A model generated the notes under the pieces. That model was given only the letters and a program-made list of their open reading frames with translations. It was not told the origin of the DNA and made no database searches. Below, piece by piece: positions 15,893-28,751 of a stretch of DNA of 28,751 nt. A program made the translations under genes and the position numbers. Positions within the stretch are counted from its first letter, which is position 1. Every line of letters starts with the position of its first letter. The stretch spans positions 1-28,751 of IMG/VR virus record IMGVR_UViG_3300027777_000114. One strand, written 5' to 3'. The stretch is from a virus.

Positions 15893-16546
15893 TTATTCAA
15901 ATAATGATGTTTGATTAAACTTAGACTTTTCAAATATGCCACGAGCAACATTGTAGATAGTCAAACCAGCTTCATAGTCAACAAGATTACGAGCAACTTT
16001 AATCATACTTTGTTCACCTTTATATGATGAAATATCAATTTTATGAAATTCACATAGCCTTTTTAGTTCATCAGTTCCAGCACCTATCTGAACTCTTCTA
16101 TCCCCTAAATCACTTGGTAGATTAAAGTTAGTCCAATATAAATGCCTACCTCTTTTCTTTGCTGCTATCAATGGTTCATAGTATGGTATGACATTCTCAA
16201 CTACCCATTTACCAGTTCTATAGTAATGTTGTAAGAATAATATTTCTTCATACAATTTCATATCAGGATATACCGCTTCAACATTAGTATCATAGTTTGA
16301 ACTGGTCCAATATCTTGCTCTACTATGACTTGGGCAAGGTGGTGAAGACCAAATAAAATCAAACTCTTTATAATGTTCAAGAAGATATTGATGTGCATCA
16401 TCAACTATTACTATATCATTTGGAAATCTTTCTTGATACATTCTTGCAAGTTCTTTGTCAAGTTCTATAGCAGTAACTTCACAATCTGTCCATAGGTATC
16501 TATTACCACCAAGACAAGCATATAAATTAAGTACTTTGTATTTCAT
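15893..16546 (-). CDS. Short cytosine-C5 DNA methyltransferase (Dcm-like)
   Basis: At 217 aa it is far shorter than typical C5 methyltransferases (300 aa or more) and appears to lack most of the target-recognition domain. SAM-binding motif I is degenerate (LNLYACLGGNRY, near residue 6). Catalytic motif IV is SSPPCPSHS with Cys71. Motif VI is VVENV (E117). The C-terminal EAGLTIYNVARGIFE resembles motif X. Members of this short family occur in many Bacteroidota phages. It presumably methylates cytosine in phage DNA, protecting it from host restriction. It is 12 nt downstream of the PP-loop gene, suggesting a shared modification function. Confidence 0.8.
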   Translation of the reverse strand: MKYKVLNLYACLGGNRYLWTDCEVTAIELDKELARMYQERFPNDIVIVDDAHQYLLEHYKEFDFIWSSPPCPSHSRARYWTSSNYDTNVEAVYPDMKLYEEILFLQHYYRTGKWVVENVIPYYEPLIAAKKRGRHLYWTNFNLPSDLGDRRVQIGAGTDELKRLCEFHKIDISSYKGEQSMIKVARNLVDYEAGLTIYNVARGIFEKSKFNQTSLFE

Positions 16547-16558
16547 AGTTATATTATT

Positions 16559-17371
16559 TTAATCTGTACAAAAACCGCCCTGACAACCAGCACCACCGCC
16601 ATAATTAAAATCAAGTTGAAGACCTAACTTAGATATGTTTTGGTATGTCATTCCATTTTTCCAATTGCCTTGTATTTTATTTTCTTGGTCAATGAACCAT
16701 TGCATCTTATTAGGATTATCTTCATAGTTCTTTCTTAATTGCTCCTTAGACTTATGAAAACATCCAACACAATTACTATCAATTGGAAATTTAAGATTTG
16801 TTGAATCAGCCCATTGTTTAACTGGTAGGTGTGTTATCTTATTTTCAATTAGTGGAAAATATCCTTCCCTCCACTCTATTTCTTTCCATTTGTTTCTACC
16901 ATTGTTTGACTTACCTACTATACCTTTAAATGTGTTAGTTAGTCGTTCTGCTCTTTCCATTTCATCCCACCTATAACCAATACCCATCTTTATCTTTTCA
17001 TTGATATTATTATACCACCAGTCCCAAATAGGTCTAATTTTCATTTCTGAGGTGCAAAACCTTCTTAATGCATTTGGTAGTATTGTACTTTTTTTAATTA
17101 TAGAATCAAAAGACTTACCACTTACCCATATAATTTCTTTACCTATAAGTTGTTCAAGTTCTAAAATAACAATAAGTGTCTTATCATCTTCTGCGGTAGC
17201 TATAAATTCTTTGCCAATCTTATCAGATATTATTTTAATCAATCCTTTGTCATTAGGTGAACATCTAACATCTTCAATAGTTACTAACGAAAATATGTTG
17301 TAGTCTGATGGGTAATGATAAGCCATATATGATGATGTCTTACCGCCTGATAGTGAGTTTATTGTTTTCAT
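16559..17371 (-). CDS. PAPS-reductase-like PP-loop ATP-pyrophosphatase
   Basis: Starts at ATG 17371 (MKTINSLSGGKTSSYMAYHY), 4 nt after the upstream stop; a longer frame from 17392 is less economical. The PP-loop SGGKTSS (residues 8-14) binds ATP pyrophosphate. Later motifs include RRFCTSEMKIRPIWDWW and CVGCFHKSKEQL, and the C-terminus ends GGGAGCQGGFCTD, four or more conserved cysteines that could hold a metal or Fe-S cluster. Phage proteins of this group are annotated as phosphoadenosine phosphosulfate reductase-like and resemble the PP-loop part of DndC-type sulfur-modification enzymes. Whether it adenylates, thiolates or reduces its substrate is unknown. Confidence 0.75.
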   Translation of the reverse strand: MKTINSLSGGKTSSYMAYHYPSDYNIFSLVTIEDVRCSPNDKGLIKIISDKIGKEFIATAEDDKTLIVILELEQLIGKEIIWVSGKSFDSIIKKSTILPNALRRFCTSEMKIRPIWDWWYNNINEKIKMGIGYRWDEMERAERLTNTFKGIVGKSNNGRNKWKEIEWREGYFPLIENKITHLPVKQWADSTNLKFPIDSNCVGCFHKSKEQLRKNYEDNPNKMQWFIDQENKIQGNWKNGMTYQNISKLGLQLDFNYGGGAGCQGGFCTD

Positions 17372-17375
17372 AAAT

Positions 17376-18122
17376 TTATTTAACATCGTCACCTACATAA
17401 TGCTGACCTTGTGATGAACGATTGAATACTGGTATTTGACCTTGTTTGACAAAGGTGTTAGAGTTATTAGTCTTGAGTTCAAATATGCCTATCCAATTAT
17501 TCTCTATTGATTTTTCAAGAATCTTAACTGCAACATCTTTGTTTGCCTTAGATAGTTCTTTAAGTTTATTAGTAAGTAATTCAACTGCATTCTTAGTTGG
17601 AATCTTTTTCATATTGATTCTCATTTGAATAAAGTTGATGAATGTCTTGTTAAGAATTTCATCAGTTCCTAAGTATTTCTCTGAATCCATCAACTTGACA
17701 AAATCATTTATAGATTTTGGCTCTTTGTTATTCTTTACTTTAACTATTTCTCTTTCATTAACACTTACATTATCATTTACATTATCATTATCAGTTGATT
17801 CTGTTGAACACATCTCAACACTTTCAACACGTGTTAATTCTGTTGAACTCTGTTGAATTTGTTTTAATGCTTTAACTTCTGCTGACTTTTTACCAGCCTT
17901 ACTCTTTGCTTCTATTGATTCTAAGTAACTTTCATTGTCTCTATCTAATTGTAGTTTGATAGGATTAAATACAAAGAATAGCATATTAGATGGGTCAGGG
18001 AACGTACCATACAACTTATACTCAAAGATTAATCTTGTTAGCTTACCTAACTGCTCATCGTCCAAAAATCTTATTGTCTCATAAGAATCGTGGTATAATA
18101 GAAATGCCTTTTTACGTTTCAT
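17376..18122 (-). CDS. DUF6291-like replication/helicase-loader candidate
   Basis: A 248-aa protein. The N-terminal part (KAFLLYHDSYETIRFLDDEQ, followed by GKLTRLIFEYKLYG, and NPIKLQLDRDNESYLESI) matches the DUF6291-type domain of phage replication proteins. A low-complexity Asn/Asp/Val/Glu linker (about residues 85-135) follows. The C-terminal segment has the shape of DnaD-like helicase-loader tails: VKILEKSIENNWIGIFELKT. It probably loads the nearby DnaB-like helicase. The structured RNA with terminator hairpin ends 6 nt before the ATG, so its expression may depend on read-through of that terminator. Confidence 0.7.
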   Translation of the reverse strand: MKRKKAFLLYHDSYETIRFLDDEQLGKLTRLIFEYKLYGTFPDPSNMLFFVFNPIKLQLDRDNESYLESIEAKSKAGKKSAEVKALKQIQQSSTELTRVESVEMCSTESTDNDNVNDNVSVNEREIVKVKNNKEPKSINDFVKLMDSEKYLGTDEILNKTFINFIQMRINMKKIPTKNAVELLTNKLKELSKANKDVAVKILEKSIENNWIGIFELKTNNSNTFVKQGQIPVFNRSSQGQHYVGDDVK

Positions 18123-18128
18123 AACAAT

Positions 18129-18200
18129 AAAAAAAGCCGTACGAGGACTGCGGTAGAATCGACCTTGATATTACTCTTAGTCTCGCAGTCACCATACGGC
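18129..18200 (-). terminator. Rho-independent terminator at the 3' end of the candidate small RNA
   Basis: A two-part stem of 6 and 7 bp, separated by a 4x4 internal loop (UGGU opposite CUCG), is followed directly by seven U residues. It also forms hairpin 2 of the RNA. It lies 6 nt before the ATG of the loader gene, so that gene is transcribed only by read-through or antitermination. Confidence 0.6.
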
Positions 18201-18247
18201 AACAATGTTTTACAATACACCCAAGATTCTACCTTTGAGTGATGCTA
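18129..18247 (-). ncRNA. Candidate structured small RNA or leader with kissing hairpins and terminator
   Basis: Between the VRR-NUC and loader genes is a 135-nt stretch with no credible ORF. Transcribed from the minus strand it forms hairpin 1 (CACUCAA at 18241-18235 pairing with UUGGGUG at 18224-18218, loop AGGUAGAAUC). It then forms hairpin 2, with GCCGUA (18200-18195) / UACGGC (18141-18136) and GACUGCG (18190-18184) / CGCAGUC (18152-18146). A U7 run at 18135-18129 follows hairpin 2, a Rho-independent terminator. The hairpin 1 loop (GGUAGAAUC) is perfectly complementary to GAUUCUACC (18160-18152) in the loop of hairpin 2. The start near 18247 is inferred from the upstream promoter. It may be a free small RNA or an attenuating leader of the loader gene. 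No known RNA family is recognised. Confidence 0.6.
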
Positions 18248-18252
18248 ATTTA

Positions 18253-18284
18253 CAAATTTATTCTTGATTGATATAACTTTCAAT
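18253..18284 (-). promoter_or_regulatory. Promoter for the candidate small RNA
   Basis: On the minus strand ATTG (18284-18281), 20-nt spacer, TAAATTTG (18260-18253) followed by T. It overlaps the 3' end of the VRR-NUC gene and would start transcription near 18247, just upstream of hairpin 1. Confidence 0.55.
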
Positions 18285-18641
18285 CACTTTAATTGTTTCG
18301 TCCACTCCAGTTGAGAATAGTGCAGCATAACCTACCTCATTCAATGCTTTCAATACCTCTGCTTGACGTTCTATATGCTCATTGGATTTTAGTGTGCCAT
18401 CTTTCTTAAATGGGTTAGCTTTATCAGTCTTAATCTCAATGAATAGACCAGCAAAACCACCACGAGGTAAGGCAATAAACAAGTCAGGGTATCCTTTGAT
18501 TGGATTCTGCGCTCTATGTTTATTTGCCATATATGGACTTAGGTAAAGACCAGCAGCAAAGTCAAAACGAAATATGACCTTTGGGTGTTTGATTGTTAGA
18601 TACCTTGCTATGACCTTGTATATCTCTGCTTCTTGACTCAT
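18258..18641 (-). CDS. VRR-NUC domain nuclease
   Basis: A 127-aa stand-alone VRR-NUC (PD-(D/E)XK) protein. The catalytic core is GYPDLFIAL (D53), LFIEIKTD (E69, K71) and ERQAEVLKAL (Q93), then GYAALFSTGVDE. Small phage VRR-NUC proteins are thought to be structure-specific nucleases (Holliday-junction or flap-like) in replication or recombination. The start at 18641 overlaps the 154-aa gene by 80 nt. The first 26 residues (MSQEAEIYKVIARYLTIKHP) look native for this family, so the overlap is probably genuine. Confidence 0.88.
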   Translation of the reverse strand: MSQEAEIYKVIARYLTIKHPKVIFRFDFAAGLYLSPYMANKHRAQNPIKGYPDLFIALPRGGFAGLFIEIKTDKANPFKKDGTLKSNEHIERQAEVLKALNEVGYAALFSTGVDETIKVIESYINQE

Positions 18642-23342: not shown

Positions 23343-23529
23343 AGCTACCAATTAACTTAATAAACTTTTCCCACTTCAATTCAAAACAAGACTTATCTCT
23401 TAGGTTTGACCTCAATACATTCTTTGCCACATAGATTGGCATTTCACGTTCAGTCACATAATGCTTTACCACAATCAGCAGTCTCTCATCTGCTTCTTCT
23501 TCGTCCATTGGTAGAGTGCATTCTTTCAT
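23329..23529 (-). CDS. Small protein, 66 aa, unknown function
   Basis: MKECTLPMDEEEADERLLIV, followed by VKHYVTEREMPIYVAKNVLR and KSCFELKWEKFIKLI. Acidic N-terminus, basic C-terminus, probably helical. Its start overlaps the PAS-DHp stop (ATGA) and its end overlaps the spanin-like start by 14 nt, so it is translated with them. It is not the missing ATPase domain of a kinase: no N-, G1- or G2-box motif is present. Function unknown. Confidence 0.5.
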   Translation of the reverse strand: MKECTLPMDEEEADERLLIVVKHYVTEREMPIYVAKNVLRSNLRDKSCFELKWEKFIKLIGSYGTK

Positions 23530-24095
23530 AACTGCCTTGTTGCTTTCTTAACTAATAGGTGTATTGATTCATCAAGTTTCTTCATTGAATCATCAACCAT
23601 CTTGAGTAGTTCAGTCTGCTCTTGGTCACCTACTTTTTCACCCTTATCAAGCAACAACTTAACCACTCCAGCAACAGATGTCAATGGTTGTCTTAATTCG
23701 TGAGACAACATAAACCTAAACTCTTCTAATAACTGCTTCTGCTTCTCGTGTTCGTGAGATGTGATACTGGTCACATCAGTAATTTGAAAACCTATAAAAT
23801 GTAATGAACCAAGTATTGCATAACAATTCCACAAGCACCATCTTAAACCACTATTTTTTTGCTTGGTTCGTGCATAAATACGAACTGGATTAGGTGTAAT
23901 CTCAATGGCTCTCTTAACTGAATAAACATAGTCGTCAAGTTCAGTATCGTCTGAGATTATATCACTAACTTTTTTTGGTTTGATGTGACTTGAATACTCC
24001 TTAAACAAGTCATTTGAACTCACAATCTTACCTTCATAGTCAGAAACTACATACAACAAGTCAATAGAATTGGCTAAGATGTATATTGCCGACAT
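23526..24095 (-). CDS. PAS + histidine-kinase dimerisation (DHp) protein without ATPase domain
   Basis: A 189-aa protein. Residues about 10-110 look like a PAS sensor domain (LLYVVSDYEGKIVSSNDLFK ... LHFIGFQITDVT as PAC-like end). Residues 113-175 form a helical linker and a HisKA H-box: FMLSHELRQPLTSVAGVV with His132, followed by the second DHp helix (LLKMVDDSMKKLDESIHLL). The protein then ends at 189, so the usual HATPase_c domain is absent and the next genes do not supply it. It could be phosphorylated by, or dimerise with, a host kinase. It lies between two membrane-protein genes in the lysis block. Confidence 0.8.
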   Translation of the reverse strand: MSAIYILANSIDLLYVVSDYEGKIVSSNDLFKEYSSHIKPKKVSDIISDDTELDDYVYSVKRAIEITPNPVRIYARTKQKNSGLRWCLWNCYAILGSLHFIGFQITDVTSITSHEHEKQKQLLEEFRFMLSHELRQPLTSVAGVVKLLLDKGEKVGDQEQTELLKMVDDSMKKLDESIHLLVKKATRQL

Positions 24096-26298: not shown

Positions 26299-26517
26299 TT
26301 AATTGTTTAAGATGTAGTTTACTGCTTTAGTTGAGTCTGTAAATTTAATACCATTGAATGTAAACTGATTTACATTTATTAAGAAGATGCCGACATTAGT
26401 ACCTAAGTGCAAGGTAAATTCATCAACGACTTCGCATAGTTCAACATTGGATGCAATTTCACCAAAGACCGATGTTGTGAAGGTTACATATCCACCTTCA
26501 ATTGTTATGTCTATCAT
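26299..26517 (-). CDS. Small fibre-region protein, 72 aa, unknown function
   Basis: MIDITIEGGYVTFTTSVFGE, then LCEVVDEFTLHLGTNVGIFL and NQFTFNGIKFTDSTKAVNYI. Beta-rich, acidic, with no cysteine motif. The start overlaps the fibre stop (ATGA), and the gap to the next gene is 4 nt. It may be a fibre-associated or assembly protein. No family recognised. Confidence 0.5.
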   Translation of the reverse strand: MIDITIEGGYVTFTTSVFGEIASNVELCEVVDEFTLHLGTNVGIFLINVNQFTFNGIKFTDSTKAVNYILNN

Positions 26518-28751
26518 AGTTTTTCGATTAAGAACATTGAACCAAAATTAACATCTGTCGCATTAGTATTCTGCAATGCGAAGACAATATATCTGTTTGC
26601 CGTCCAATCAATAGCATTAGCAGATACTCCTTGTGTTGTGCCAATATCACTTGGAAATCCAGTATAAGCAGCATTAAATGTTTCAGTATTCGTTGTAGCA
26701 TTTTTAATTACCCAATGGCGTAGCATCTGATTCAATAAGTTAGCGGCACCAGCAGCAGCCCAAGCACTTACTAATAATGGTGTTCCACTCAAATCAGCAG
26801 TAGCATTAACATATATTCTCAAGGTTTGTGTACCTGAAACACCAGTTTTCTTAGTACGAAAGCTAATTCTGATAATATCACCAACTGCAAATGTATTGGC
26901 TGCAATTAGCTGAGTATAGACGGCAGTATTAGTTGTATTTGAAAAACTTGCAGTATCGGTTACTGACTTATAAATTGTCGGAACTACAATTGATATATTG
27001 CCACTACCAAGCAATGATGTTGAGTTGATGGTCTTGATGCTTGTTCCACTTACTAATGCATCTTGTTTAGCATTCCAAGTAGATGCACTTGCAATACGAG
27101 CATCAGCCAATGTTCCAGTCCATCCTAATGTTAATGATGTTGCTTGTAGTAGAGCCGTTGTAGGAGTGCCACCAAGTGTAAGTGTCACATTGGTATCATC
27201 AACTTTGGTTAATGCAGCAGCAGTTATTGTTGGTTGTTTTCCATTTAACGCAGTTTGCGTAGCCGTACTGATTGGCTTATTAGCATCACTTGTATTGTCG
27301 ACATTGCTCAATCCAACCGCAGACTTATCTAATGTTTGAAAAGACTTATCTCCTCTATAATATTGTGATGATGTACCAGCTGTAATTGTAGGCTCAACTG
27401 CAATGTTACCAGCACCAAGAACACTTGTTGAGTTTATGGTCTTAATGTTTGTGCCACTTACAAGTGAATCTTGTTTACCATTAAAAGTTGACCAATCAGC
27501 ACTACTCAATGCTCCTCTATTAGATGCAGATGCAGTTGGTAGGTTCAATGTATGTGTACTTGTTGAAGAACTTATTGCAAAATCAGTTCCACTTGTACCT
27601 ACTGCCAAATTTTGCACTTGTGCAGTTAAACCATTAAGTGCATTTATGCCAGTTGAGAATGTTGTGATTACTTGGCAAAGATGATTATCTTCAGTATGTA
27701 GTGTAATTGTTTTGCTACTATGTAATACATAGACTCTTATAGCAAGTCTATCAGCGGCAAGTAATATTGTACTTGGAACTGCTACCGCAGTAGTATAAAG
27801 GTCAATCGTAGTACCATTAGTAATGCCTTCAGGATTAGTTGAATTCGATGCAATTAATGTCAATGTGCCACCACTTAACTTATATAATTCTACATAGAAT
27901 GATGGACTACCACCGCCACTTGATGCAGAAAAGTACATCTCGAAATTCCAATTTCCAGCAGGTATTGCCAATAGATTTGGAACACTCGCATCAGTTATAA
28001 ATGACTGAATGTATCCATTTGCATTAATGCTAAAATCTGTTCCTCCACCAATAATTGGAGTTCCACTCATCTGCTTGAATGCTACACCTCCCAATGTACC
28101 TTGAGCAACTGAACCATTTAAATAGTAACTTAGAGATGAACCACCACCACTTGATGTTGGAAAATTAGCAAGTTGCCCATCTCCACGAATGTATTGACTT
28201 GATAAACCATTTGCACTTACTCCTAATGTACCACTTGTTGTTATTGGACTATTAGTTACTGAGAATGCAGATGGCATTGTAAGACCAACTGATGTAACAC
28301 TACCATTTGGTATATTAGGTTTGTTCTTGATGTAGTCAAGTAATAAGTTATTTGTTTGATTCCAATCACTTTGTATTTGGGCATCAGGTATTGTAGGCTT
28401 ATTTAATATTTGAGAAAGTCCGCTCGTTGCGTTCCAATCAGAATTAACTTGTGGTGGAACATCTGTAATTTTTATAAAACCACTATCATTAGTCAATTGA
28501 CTTGTCAATGTTGGCACATCAGCAGATGTAATAAAACCACTATCGTTAGTTAGTTGACTTGTAGCAGTTGGAACATCTGCTGAAGTTATAAATCCGCTAT
28601 CGTTAGTTAATTCACTCGTCAATGTTGGAACATCGGCAGAAGTGATAAAGCCACTATCGTTAGTCAAGTCACTTGTTAATGTCGGAATTGTAGGTTGATT
28701 ACTTAAATCGTTATAATTTCCACTTGTAGCTACTGCTGCTAATGTTGGTTT
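26514..28751 (-). CDS. Large tail fibre protein (5' end outside window)
   Basis: At least 745 codons are present and the frame is open to the right edge. The first visible residues are KPTLAAVATSGNYNDLSNQP, so the true start is outside; an apparent TTG start at 28667 is inside a repeat and not real. It has tandem 19-aa repeats LTNDSGFITSADVPT-TSx near the N-terminal visible part. It then has fibre motifs SSQYxRGDxxF (twice), and two copies of GTxIKTINSTSxLGxGNI. C-terminal domains are beta-rich (SYYLNGSVAQGTLGG; TQTLRIYVNATADLSGTPLL). These modules are common in side-tail fibres and receptor-binding proteins of phages. Confidence 0.85.
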   Translation of the reverse strand, partial: KPTLAAVATSGNYNDLSNQPTIPTLTSDLTNDSGFITSADVPTLTSELTNDSGFITSADVPTATSQLTNDSGFITSADVPTLTSQLTNDSGFIKITDVPPQVNSDWNATSGLSQILNKPTIPDAQIQSDWNQTNNLLLDYIKNKPNIPNGSVTSVGLTMPSAFSVTNSPITTSGTLGVSANGLSSQYIRGDGQLANFPTSSGGGSSLSYYLNGSVAQGTLGGVAFKQMSGTPIIGGGTDFSINANGYIQSFITDASVPNLLAIPAGNWNFEMYFSASSGGGSPSFYVELYKLSGGTLTLIASNSTNPEGITNGTTIDLYTTAVAVPSTILLAADRLAIRVYVLHSSKTITLHTEDNHLCQVITTFSTGINALNGLTAQVQNLAVGTSGTDFAISSSTSTHTLNLPTASASNRGALSSADWSTFNGKQDSLVSGTNIKTINSTSVLGAGNIAVEPTITAGTSSQYYRGDKSFQTLDKSAVGLSNVDNTSDANKPISTATQTALNGKQPTITAAALTKVDDTNVTLTLGGTPTTALLQATSLTLGWTGTLADARIASASTWNAKQDALVSGTSIKTINSTSLLGSGNISIVVPTIYKSVTDTASFSNTTNTAVYTQLIAANTFAVGDIIRISFRTKKTGVSGTQTLRIYVNATADLSGTPLLVSAWAAAGAANLLNQMLRHWVIKNATTNTETFNAAYTGFPSDIGTTQGVSANAIDWTANRYIVFALQNTNATDVNFGSMFLIEKL
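28440..28690 (-). repeat. Tandem 57-bp coding repeats in the tail fibre
   Basis: Three full copies (28667-28611, 28610-28554, 28553-28497) and partial copies on both sides encode LTNDSGFITSADVPT[L/A]TS[E/Q]. The copies are nearly identical in protein but differ at many third codon positions. They probably form a repeating shaft segment. Confidence 0.8.

Follow-up and report, generated by a model that had tools for sequence, protein, structure and literature searches.

Comparative sequence evidence strongly supports the presence, in a group of phages, of a conserved structured RNA with two mutually complementary hairpin loops and with a promoter box and terminator of its own. The RNA was characterized in a window of 28,751 nucleotides (the whole stretch of viral DNA analysed, IMG/VR record IMGVR_UViG_3300027777_000114), and its predicted structure, its strand and its conservation are all strongly supported. 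Its most likely role is that of a leader RNA or attenuator; pairing between the loops would set either termination or the activity of a small RNA (sRNA), and the loop sets would rarely cross-pair. That the loops differ between phages yet stay matched suggests a lineage-specific RNA control of replication.

Architecture of the RNA at the window locus

On the minus strand, from 18252 to 18129, the -7 box TAAATTAG is followed by 3 nt, a 5' hairpin (H1), a 17-nt linker, a terminator hairpin (H2) and U7 (Table 1). A first-pass annotation of this DNA had described such a layout, and its promoter box, two hairpins and U7 were all found in place, as were a first hairpin of 7 bp with a 10-nt loop and a two-part second hairpin with a GACU/GGUC inner stem. 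From the position of the -7 box we infer a start that would give an RNA of about 110 nt. Six nucleotides separate U7 from the ATG (18122) of the downstream gene, which is replication-initiator-like (it had been annotated as replication-loader-like); its 248-aa product also matches primosomal families.

Table 1. Features of the RNA and of its flanking genes (positions in the window)
Feature	Position	Strand	Description
Upstream gene	18258..18641	-	Holliday-junction-resolvase/endonuclease-like matches
TAAATTTG, second TAnnTTTG-like sequence	18253..18260	-	Overlaps the upstream gene's stop codon; not conserved there
-7 promoter box TAAATTAG	18245..18252	-	Kept in relatives as TAnnTT[T/A], then mostly G
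5' hairpin H1	18218..18241	-	Stem of 7 bp, 18241-18235/18224-18218; loop of 10 nt
X, H1-loop half of the kissing contact, GUAGAAUC	18225..18232	-	Pairing and covariation
Linker	18201..18217	-	17 nt, A/U-rich
Terminator hairpin H2	18136..18200	-	9 bp, U.C mismatch and 7 bp, 18200-18184/18152-18136
Inner hairpin of H2	18161..18182	-	GACU/GGUC and GA/UC
X', partner half of the kissing contact, GAUUCUAC	18153..18160	-	Pairing and covariation
U7 of the intrinsic terminator	18129..18135	-	Sequence
Downstream gene, 248 aa	17376..18122	-	DUF6291 N-terminus; replication-initiation O-like match, residues 59-229

The annotated Bacteroidota-type promoter was upheld, with a change of place. The Bacteroidota -7 consensus is TAnnTTTG according to available passages of PMC7366714. 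In the alignment of 40 close relatives (family I), columns 5, 6, 9 and 10, all within the box TAAATTAG, are invariant as T, A, T and T, whereas columns 1-4, in the region of the better-looking TAAATTTG 8 nt upstream, are variable. No kept -33 element was seen among the family I relatives. In most members of two further families of the same plan (families II and III) the box has the form TATATTTG.

A perfect nine-nucleotide match between the loops had also been reported. It is exact in the window, where GGUAGAAUC of the H1 loop (18233-18225) has its full complement, GAUUCUACC (18160-18152), in the 3' part of the H2 loop. Eight of these nine partners are free in loop 2, and C18152, the ninth, also belongs to the inner stem as its last base. 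In relatives whose loop is CUGGAAUC the ninth pair cannot form, and the conserved contact is therefore one of 8 bp.

The layout had been called unlikely to arise by chance, and for the window alone this is only moderately so. A plan scanner, which looks for a hairpin loop complementary over at least 7 nt to the loop of a terminator hairpin, plus a T run, found one place in the window, with a 9-nt contact and a box. Sixty shuffled windows pooled gave 24 matches with a contact of at least 7 nt, six with at least 9 nt and four with a promoter box. The certainty of the element comes from the comparative evidence and not from the window alone: a chance origin is ruled out by the covariation of the contact and the stems described below. 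A coding reading was also rejected, since frames starting from the invariant AUGGUGACUG span from 5 to 83 codons and the reading frame is therefore not conserved.

Covariation among close relatives

Forty virus loci were found by way of the downstream gene and two DNA patterns added more. After removal of duplicates, family I comprised 40 distinct RNAs (39 distinct alignment rows). Viral pattern matches that lacked the contact (L067, L069, L073 and L080) were unrelated and were dropped. In addition, 31 stretches in genome_contigs matched the family I pattern; 29 of the 30 of these bacterial candidates that were examined (L120 left out) were without the exact 8-nt contact and were not accepted as relatives, and L115, in which the complementary stretch lies within a tandem repeat, was likewise rejected.

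Ten loop sequences form the kissing contact in the 40 RNAs. In a set whose extraction demanded the exact 8-nt contact, all 312 of 312 contact cells were paired, and 51 of these had changed on both sides, in four of the eight contact pairs. None of 500 shuffles reached the observed pairing, and contact registers slid along the loops were at most 54 % paired. A tree from which the contact columns were left out, uncertain because the alignment is short, calls for at least 12 changes of loop type (nine being the minimum for ten types) and for at least seven, six and five changes in the three most variable contact pairs. The consensus fold, also computed without the contact, gives H1, H2 and the inner hairpin (the last with one pair fewer in the RNAalifold consensus), and both sides have changed in four of the seven H1 pairs. 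Compensatory changes, proposed at the outset as the test of the structure, are present in both stems and in the loop contact.

G.U pairs occupied 70 of the 1031 stem cells in family I against none of the 320 contact cells. Within the stems G.U far exceeds A.C (70 against three in family I and, among the matches listed, 108 against five in family III), which places the RNA on the minus strand. This tolerance of G.U and hardly of A.C, on one strand only, speaks against an element acting as DNA, such as an origin hairpin or an invertible or recombination site. The inverted repeat does adjoin replication genes, as such an element might, but it comes with a -7 box and a U tract and no flipped copies occur in the alignments, and we consider this explanation very improbable.

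Families II and III and singletons of the same plan

RNAs predicted to have the same layout fall into families that share no evident sequence likeness. In 20 loci whose DUF6291 genes are distant, a covariance search returned weak matches upstream of the gene in four; one further weak match in these loci was taken for chance. The same plan was met with other stems and loops, as in GUAGGCU/AGCCUAC of L037 and GUGAGAUG/CAUCUCAC of L022. The plan scanner returned 14 matches in 22 loci, eight of them with a -7 box, compared with seven and one in three pooled shuffles. One of the eight, on the minus strand of L036, was judged spurious, and the other seven lay in seven loci, two of which share one RNA. 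Fifty further loci gave 24 matches, 17 of them boxed (13 and one in three shuffles); the 17 comprised four of family I, seven repeats of earlier loci and six new RNAs (L141, L148, L149-L151 and, less certain, L187). A boxed RNA was absent by the scanner from 15 of the 22 and 33 of the 50 loci with DUF6291-type genes, and the RNA therefore does not accompany every such gene.

Family II was collected with a pattern blind to the contact, which had 13 distinct matches. L125 and L126 (coding sequence) and L136 (cut off) were dropped, and the 10 complete RNAs carry four loop sequences (GTCGCAT, GTAGGCT, GTGAGAG and GTAGGAG) in near-identical flanks. The contact-blind pattern for family III matched at least 120 stretches, giving, together with six founders, at least 88 distinct matches. 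All eight contact positions were paired in 86 of the 88 distinct matches listed, 81 of them with Watson-Crick pairs only and five with one G.U; L251 and L306, pattern matches without the contact, were dropped. At least 20 loop sequences occur in this family. For the first 65 matches, RNAalifold recovered both hairpins, in which both partners have changed in 15 of 17 pairs, and 94.9 % of contact cells were paired against 67.6 % when shuffled. The unpaired cells belonged to five rows of one loop type aligned one column off, which pair at eight of eight positions when read directly. With these five rows left out, G.U took up five of 479 contact cells against 104 of 987 stem cells among the matches listed. 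Direct reading of families I, II and III showed that one contact strand mostly begins with GU and the other mostly ends with AC. A few singletons share the plan.

The recurrence of stems and contact together with promoter box and U tract, in families unlike in sequence, bears on whether the complementarity might be kept by mutation and not by selection, through template switching between the arms of an imperfect inverted repeat. In the family I contact, five of the six relations between pair types are double transversions, which are hard to pass one side at a time and would suit such a process. Mutation alone would be insufficient for the recurrence, and of all the explanations weighed here we give this one the least credence.

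Genomic position and neighbouring genes

The next ATG lay 0-13 nt past the U tract in all those family I RNAs, 37 of the 40, that were measured by regex. Proteins of initiator or loader type, recognized by their N-terminal motif, were encoded within 900 nt downstream of 39 of the 40 family I RNAs, the exception being L070 with no ORF listed behind the RNA, and of 74 of the 86 family III RNAs among the matches listed, the remaining 12 having no initiator type in reach. One small gene often stands between the RNA and the initiator- or loader-type gene.

Nineteen genes behind the RNA were compared with PHROGs. Six matched replication initiation, helicase-loader, primosomal or replisome-organizer families (L205, L199 (weakly), L263, L008, L006 and L012), one a primase/helicase family (L238) and four only unknown PHROGs that are also matched by the gene of the window itself (L207, L196, L204 and L074). 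The rest were two thymidylate synthases, two DNA methyltransferases, one HNH endonuclease and three genes without a match. The downstream genes are accordingly of several types, some of them related to one another. In L197, L256, L215, L082 and L200 the place of the initiator is taken by genes for thymidylate synthase, ParB/DNA-methyltransferase or HNH endonuclease, and the initiator slot looks as if it takes inserted genes. An identical loop sequence precedes two or more gene types for five of the 10 loop sequences of family I and, among the matches listed, for 11 of 17 in family III. As judged from sequence, the position fits an attenuator of the replication module or an sRNA linked to it.

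Several other genes of the window stand out. Directly after the initiator gene lies one for a phosphoadenosine phosphosulfate reductase-like protein (16559-17392, minus strand), and next to it one whose product has a partial match to C-5 cytosine methylase (15893-16546). The ORF at 23526-24095 (minus strand) has a histidine-kinase HisKA domain match (E 2.9e-9), a domain that we consider unusual for a phage, and 26514-28667 (minus strand) encodes a protein with tail matches and a near-perfect N-terminal repeat, LTNDSGFITSADVPT.

Distribution and life style

The carriers are many uncultured phages, probably of Bacteroidota bacteria. Model searches gave one strong copy per virus record, with the exception of G406, and weaker overlapping matches also on the opposite strand of the same hairpins. 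G406 (62,297 bases; L314 and L316) holds two kissing RNAs with different X and two DnaB genes, and because of the latter it is taken for two related phages joined. Tyrosine integrase (PF00589) was found in none and serine recombinase (PF00239) in one of 25 records, which may be fragments. With integrases mostly missing, prophage immunity of the P4 kind is unlikely.

DUF6291 was present in three of 395 Bacteroidota genomes. In one of these three a same-plan RNA with the loop GTGCAGA precedes the DUF6291 gene (L190, 206-290); its promoter box, which the scanner had missed, was read directly. A gene that reads as GIY-YIG-like stands between this RNA and the DUF6291 gene. The family III model gave one weak match in the 395 genomes, without the contact, and this was rejected. 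Comparison by DNA revealed no named phage relatives, only short matches. Three scanner matches in Flavobacterium phage tant8-1 were obtained at loose settings and judged not credible, and no match with a box was found in the 7 kb of Cellulophaga phage phi13:2 that were scanned.

At the gathering score, Rfam 15 had no match in the window or in 13 loci that included the other families, which bears out, for this release, the annotated absence of a known RNA family. A relaxed Rfam search of L001 gave two matches, neither of them within the RNA. No published description of such an RNA was found in the literature searched, and kissing and attenuation are absent from the available passages of a review of phage sRNAs (PMC12197685).

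Loop specificity and proposed function

The reading we favour, though tentatively and at less than even confidence, is of a replication-leader RNA of about 110 nt in which X:X' pairing would set the expression of the replication genes, each lineage responding mainly to its own RNA. Transcription would start at H1 and end at the terminator directly before the phage replication genes, and by virtue of its terminator the RNA would be a short transcript and at the same time attenuate the genes downstream. X and X' would pair as the RNA is made, possibly also between RNA copies, and this pairing would alter terminator folding or sRNA action and, through it, replication gene expression. X and X' would have diverged jointly into sets that rarely cross-pair, and each phage lineage would therefore answer mainly to its own RNA. 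The weakest step is the link from contact to termination, which is a guess because neither single-sequence nor consensus folds showed a rival antiterminator; the terminator stem overlaps X' at one base only. Moreover, a contact in cis should usually beat pairing in trans. Also counting against this reading are the 12 family III RNAs (matches listed) with no initiator type in reach and the many loci with DUF6291-type genes in which the scanner found no boxed RNA.

The specificity of the loops was assessed from predicted duplexes. Non-cognate X:X' duplexes came within 3 kcal/mol of the cognate ones in four of 90 ordered combinations in family I and, among the matches listed, in 13 of 420 in family III. 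Of 2782 random cross pairs in family III (matches listed), 276 were able to pair at eight of eight positions once G.U pairs and register shifts were permitted, and the orthogonality is therefore good, not absolute. X outpaced the rest of the RNA in nine of 10 divergence bins, by 1.1 to 1.9-fold, and was slightly slower in one bin; every change in X needs a partner change in X'.

Copies of an RNA's own X or X' elsewhere were counted in partial, related loci, and the counts are to be read as such. In the family III locus sequence there were none, against 6.7 expected when types were permuted (P 0.003). Family I had five against 8.2 (P 0.26, not significant), and both families together five against 15.4 expected. 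Together, the points on specificity, on divergence and on the lack of own X and X' elsewhere lean weakly towards pairing between molecules.

YUNR is the U-turn motif of antisense kissing loops. It was present in 14 of the 18 family III X types among the matches listed (X read at columns 22-29 of alignment A3), against 10.7 in column shuffles (P 0.013), and in one of the 10 family I X types and two of the 18 family III X' types (matches listed).

The main rival to the leader reading is nearly as likely, and itself stays short of an even chance: X and X' would pair only in cis, as an intramolecular pseudoknot that builds a compact and stable RNA, a platform for protein binding or an efficient terminator, and X would drift with compensation. 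X and X' do match within each RNA, and family I has the form of a three-way junction, with 0-1 unpaired nt where the contact, the inner hairpin and the stem come together. Linker and H2 lengths also look alike across the three families, although L022 and L187 have longer linkers. The absence of a family III RNA's own X elsewhere in the locus sequence argues against a purely structural role, as do the scarcity of G.U in the contact compared with the stems and the rare cross-pairing of X sets, although helix stability could also explain these last two.

Pairing between molecules might go further and serve as a self/non-self RNA address, a reading that we regard as possible but unlikely. In phages of Bacteroidota-type hosts, the leader would sense its own copies via the variable kissing loops (at least 20 codes in family III and 10 in family I) and would limit replication by genome dosage or shut off any co-infecting phage with a matching code; those with other codes would escape.

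The promoter box, the terminator and the exposed loops would equally befit a free trans-acting sRNA directed at host or phage mRNAs, the contact hiding its seed until a target competes, and the YUNR motif in 14 of 18 family III X types (matches listed) is in keeping with this. Such a role is improbable in our view: no excess of targets was found in the phages, where own X and X' are rarer than expected, a host target would have to change along with X through at least 20 forms, and YUNR is as infrequent in family I X and family III X' (matches listed) as given above.

Comparison with known systems

The RNAs described here form a group of structured phage RNAs that is absent from the libraries searched, is known by plan and not by sequence, and is mostly placed at the entry of replication genes. 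In its working the leader RNA that we favour is kin to the antisense kissing regulators of plasmids and phages, such as pT181 and P4 CI, yet it is a member of neither group, because both partners sit in one short transcript.

Regulators of the pT181/pIP501 type have an attenuator in the leader RNA before a replication gene. Available passages of PMC4878617 describe pT181-type attenuators as working through loop-loop kissing, a separate antisense RNA and an antiterminator. Set against those passages, the phage RNA has in common with pT181 a 5' hairpin that would be recognized by kissing, an intrinsic terminator downstream of it, here predicted from sequence in the leader of a replication gene, and specificity that lies in the kissing hairpin. 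In pT181 the complementarity between the antisense RNA and the 5' part is complete, whereas in the phage RNA both loops are in one molecule and only 7-9 nt are complementary.

The P4 CI RNA, in the passages available of PMC4825925, pairs with seqA and seqC, up- and downstream, and stops replication gene expression in lysogeny. As there, the antisense segment of the phage RNA and its target lie on one strand, in one presumed transcript, and would act by early termination ahead of replication genes. P4 as portrayed in that source has lysogeny, a processed CI RNA and outside targets; here the partner is the terminator loop and integrases are mostly missing, giving no sign of a temperate life style in records that may be fragments. 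STnc6030 of phage BTP1 is presented in passages of PMC7067206 as a phage-specific exclusion RNA with proposed base pairing, from which single changes escape. It differs, on the same partial account, in being a prophage-encoded 786-nt antisense RNA to late genes.

The pRNA of phi29, likewise from a phage and about 120 nt long, has two loops that are complementary to each other and covary. It is a packaging-motor RNA from another phage group, not known to have a leader or terminator role, and the RNAs described here are set apart from it by having no Rfam match. In ColE1 RNAI/RNAII, CopA/CopT and FinP/traJ the kissing-loop sequences define compatibility groups, and sense and antisense RNAs come from opposite DNA strands. 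If the loops of the phage RNAs are likewise a compatibility code, they would constitute a natural set of near-orthogonal kissing pairs, and phages in which integrases are mostly missing would have a counterpart to plasmid incompatibility that works by base pairing.
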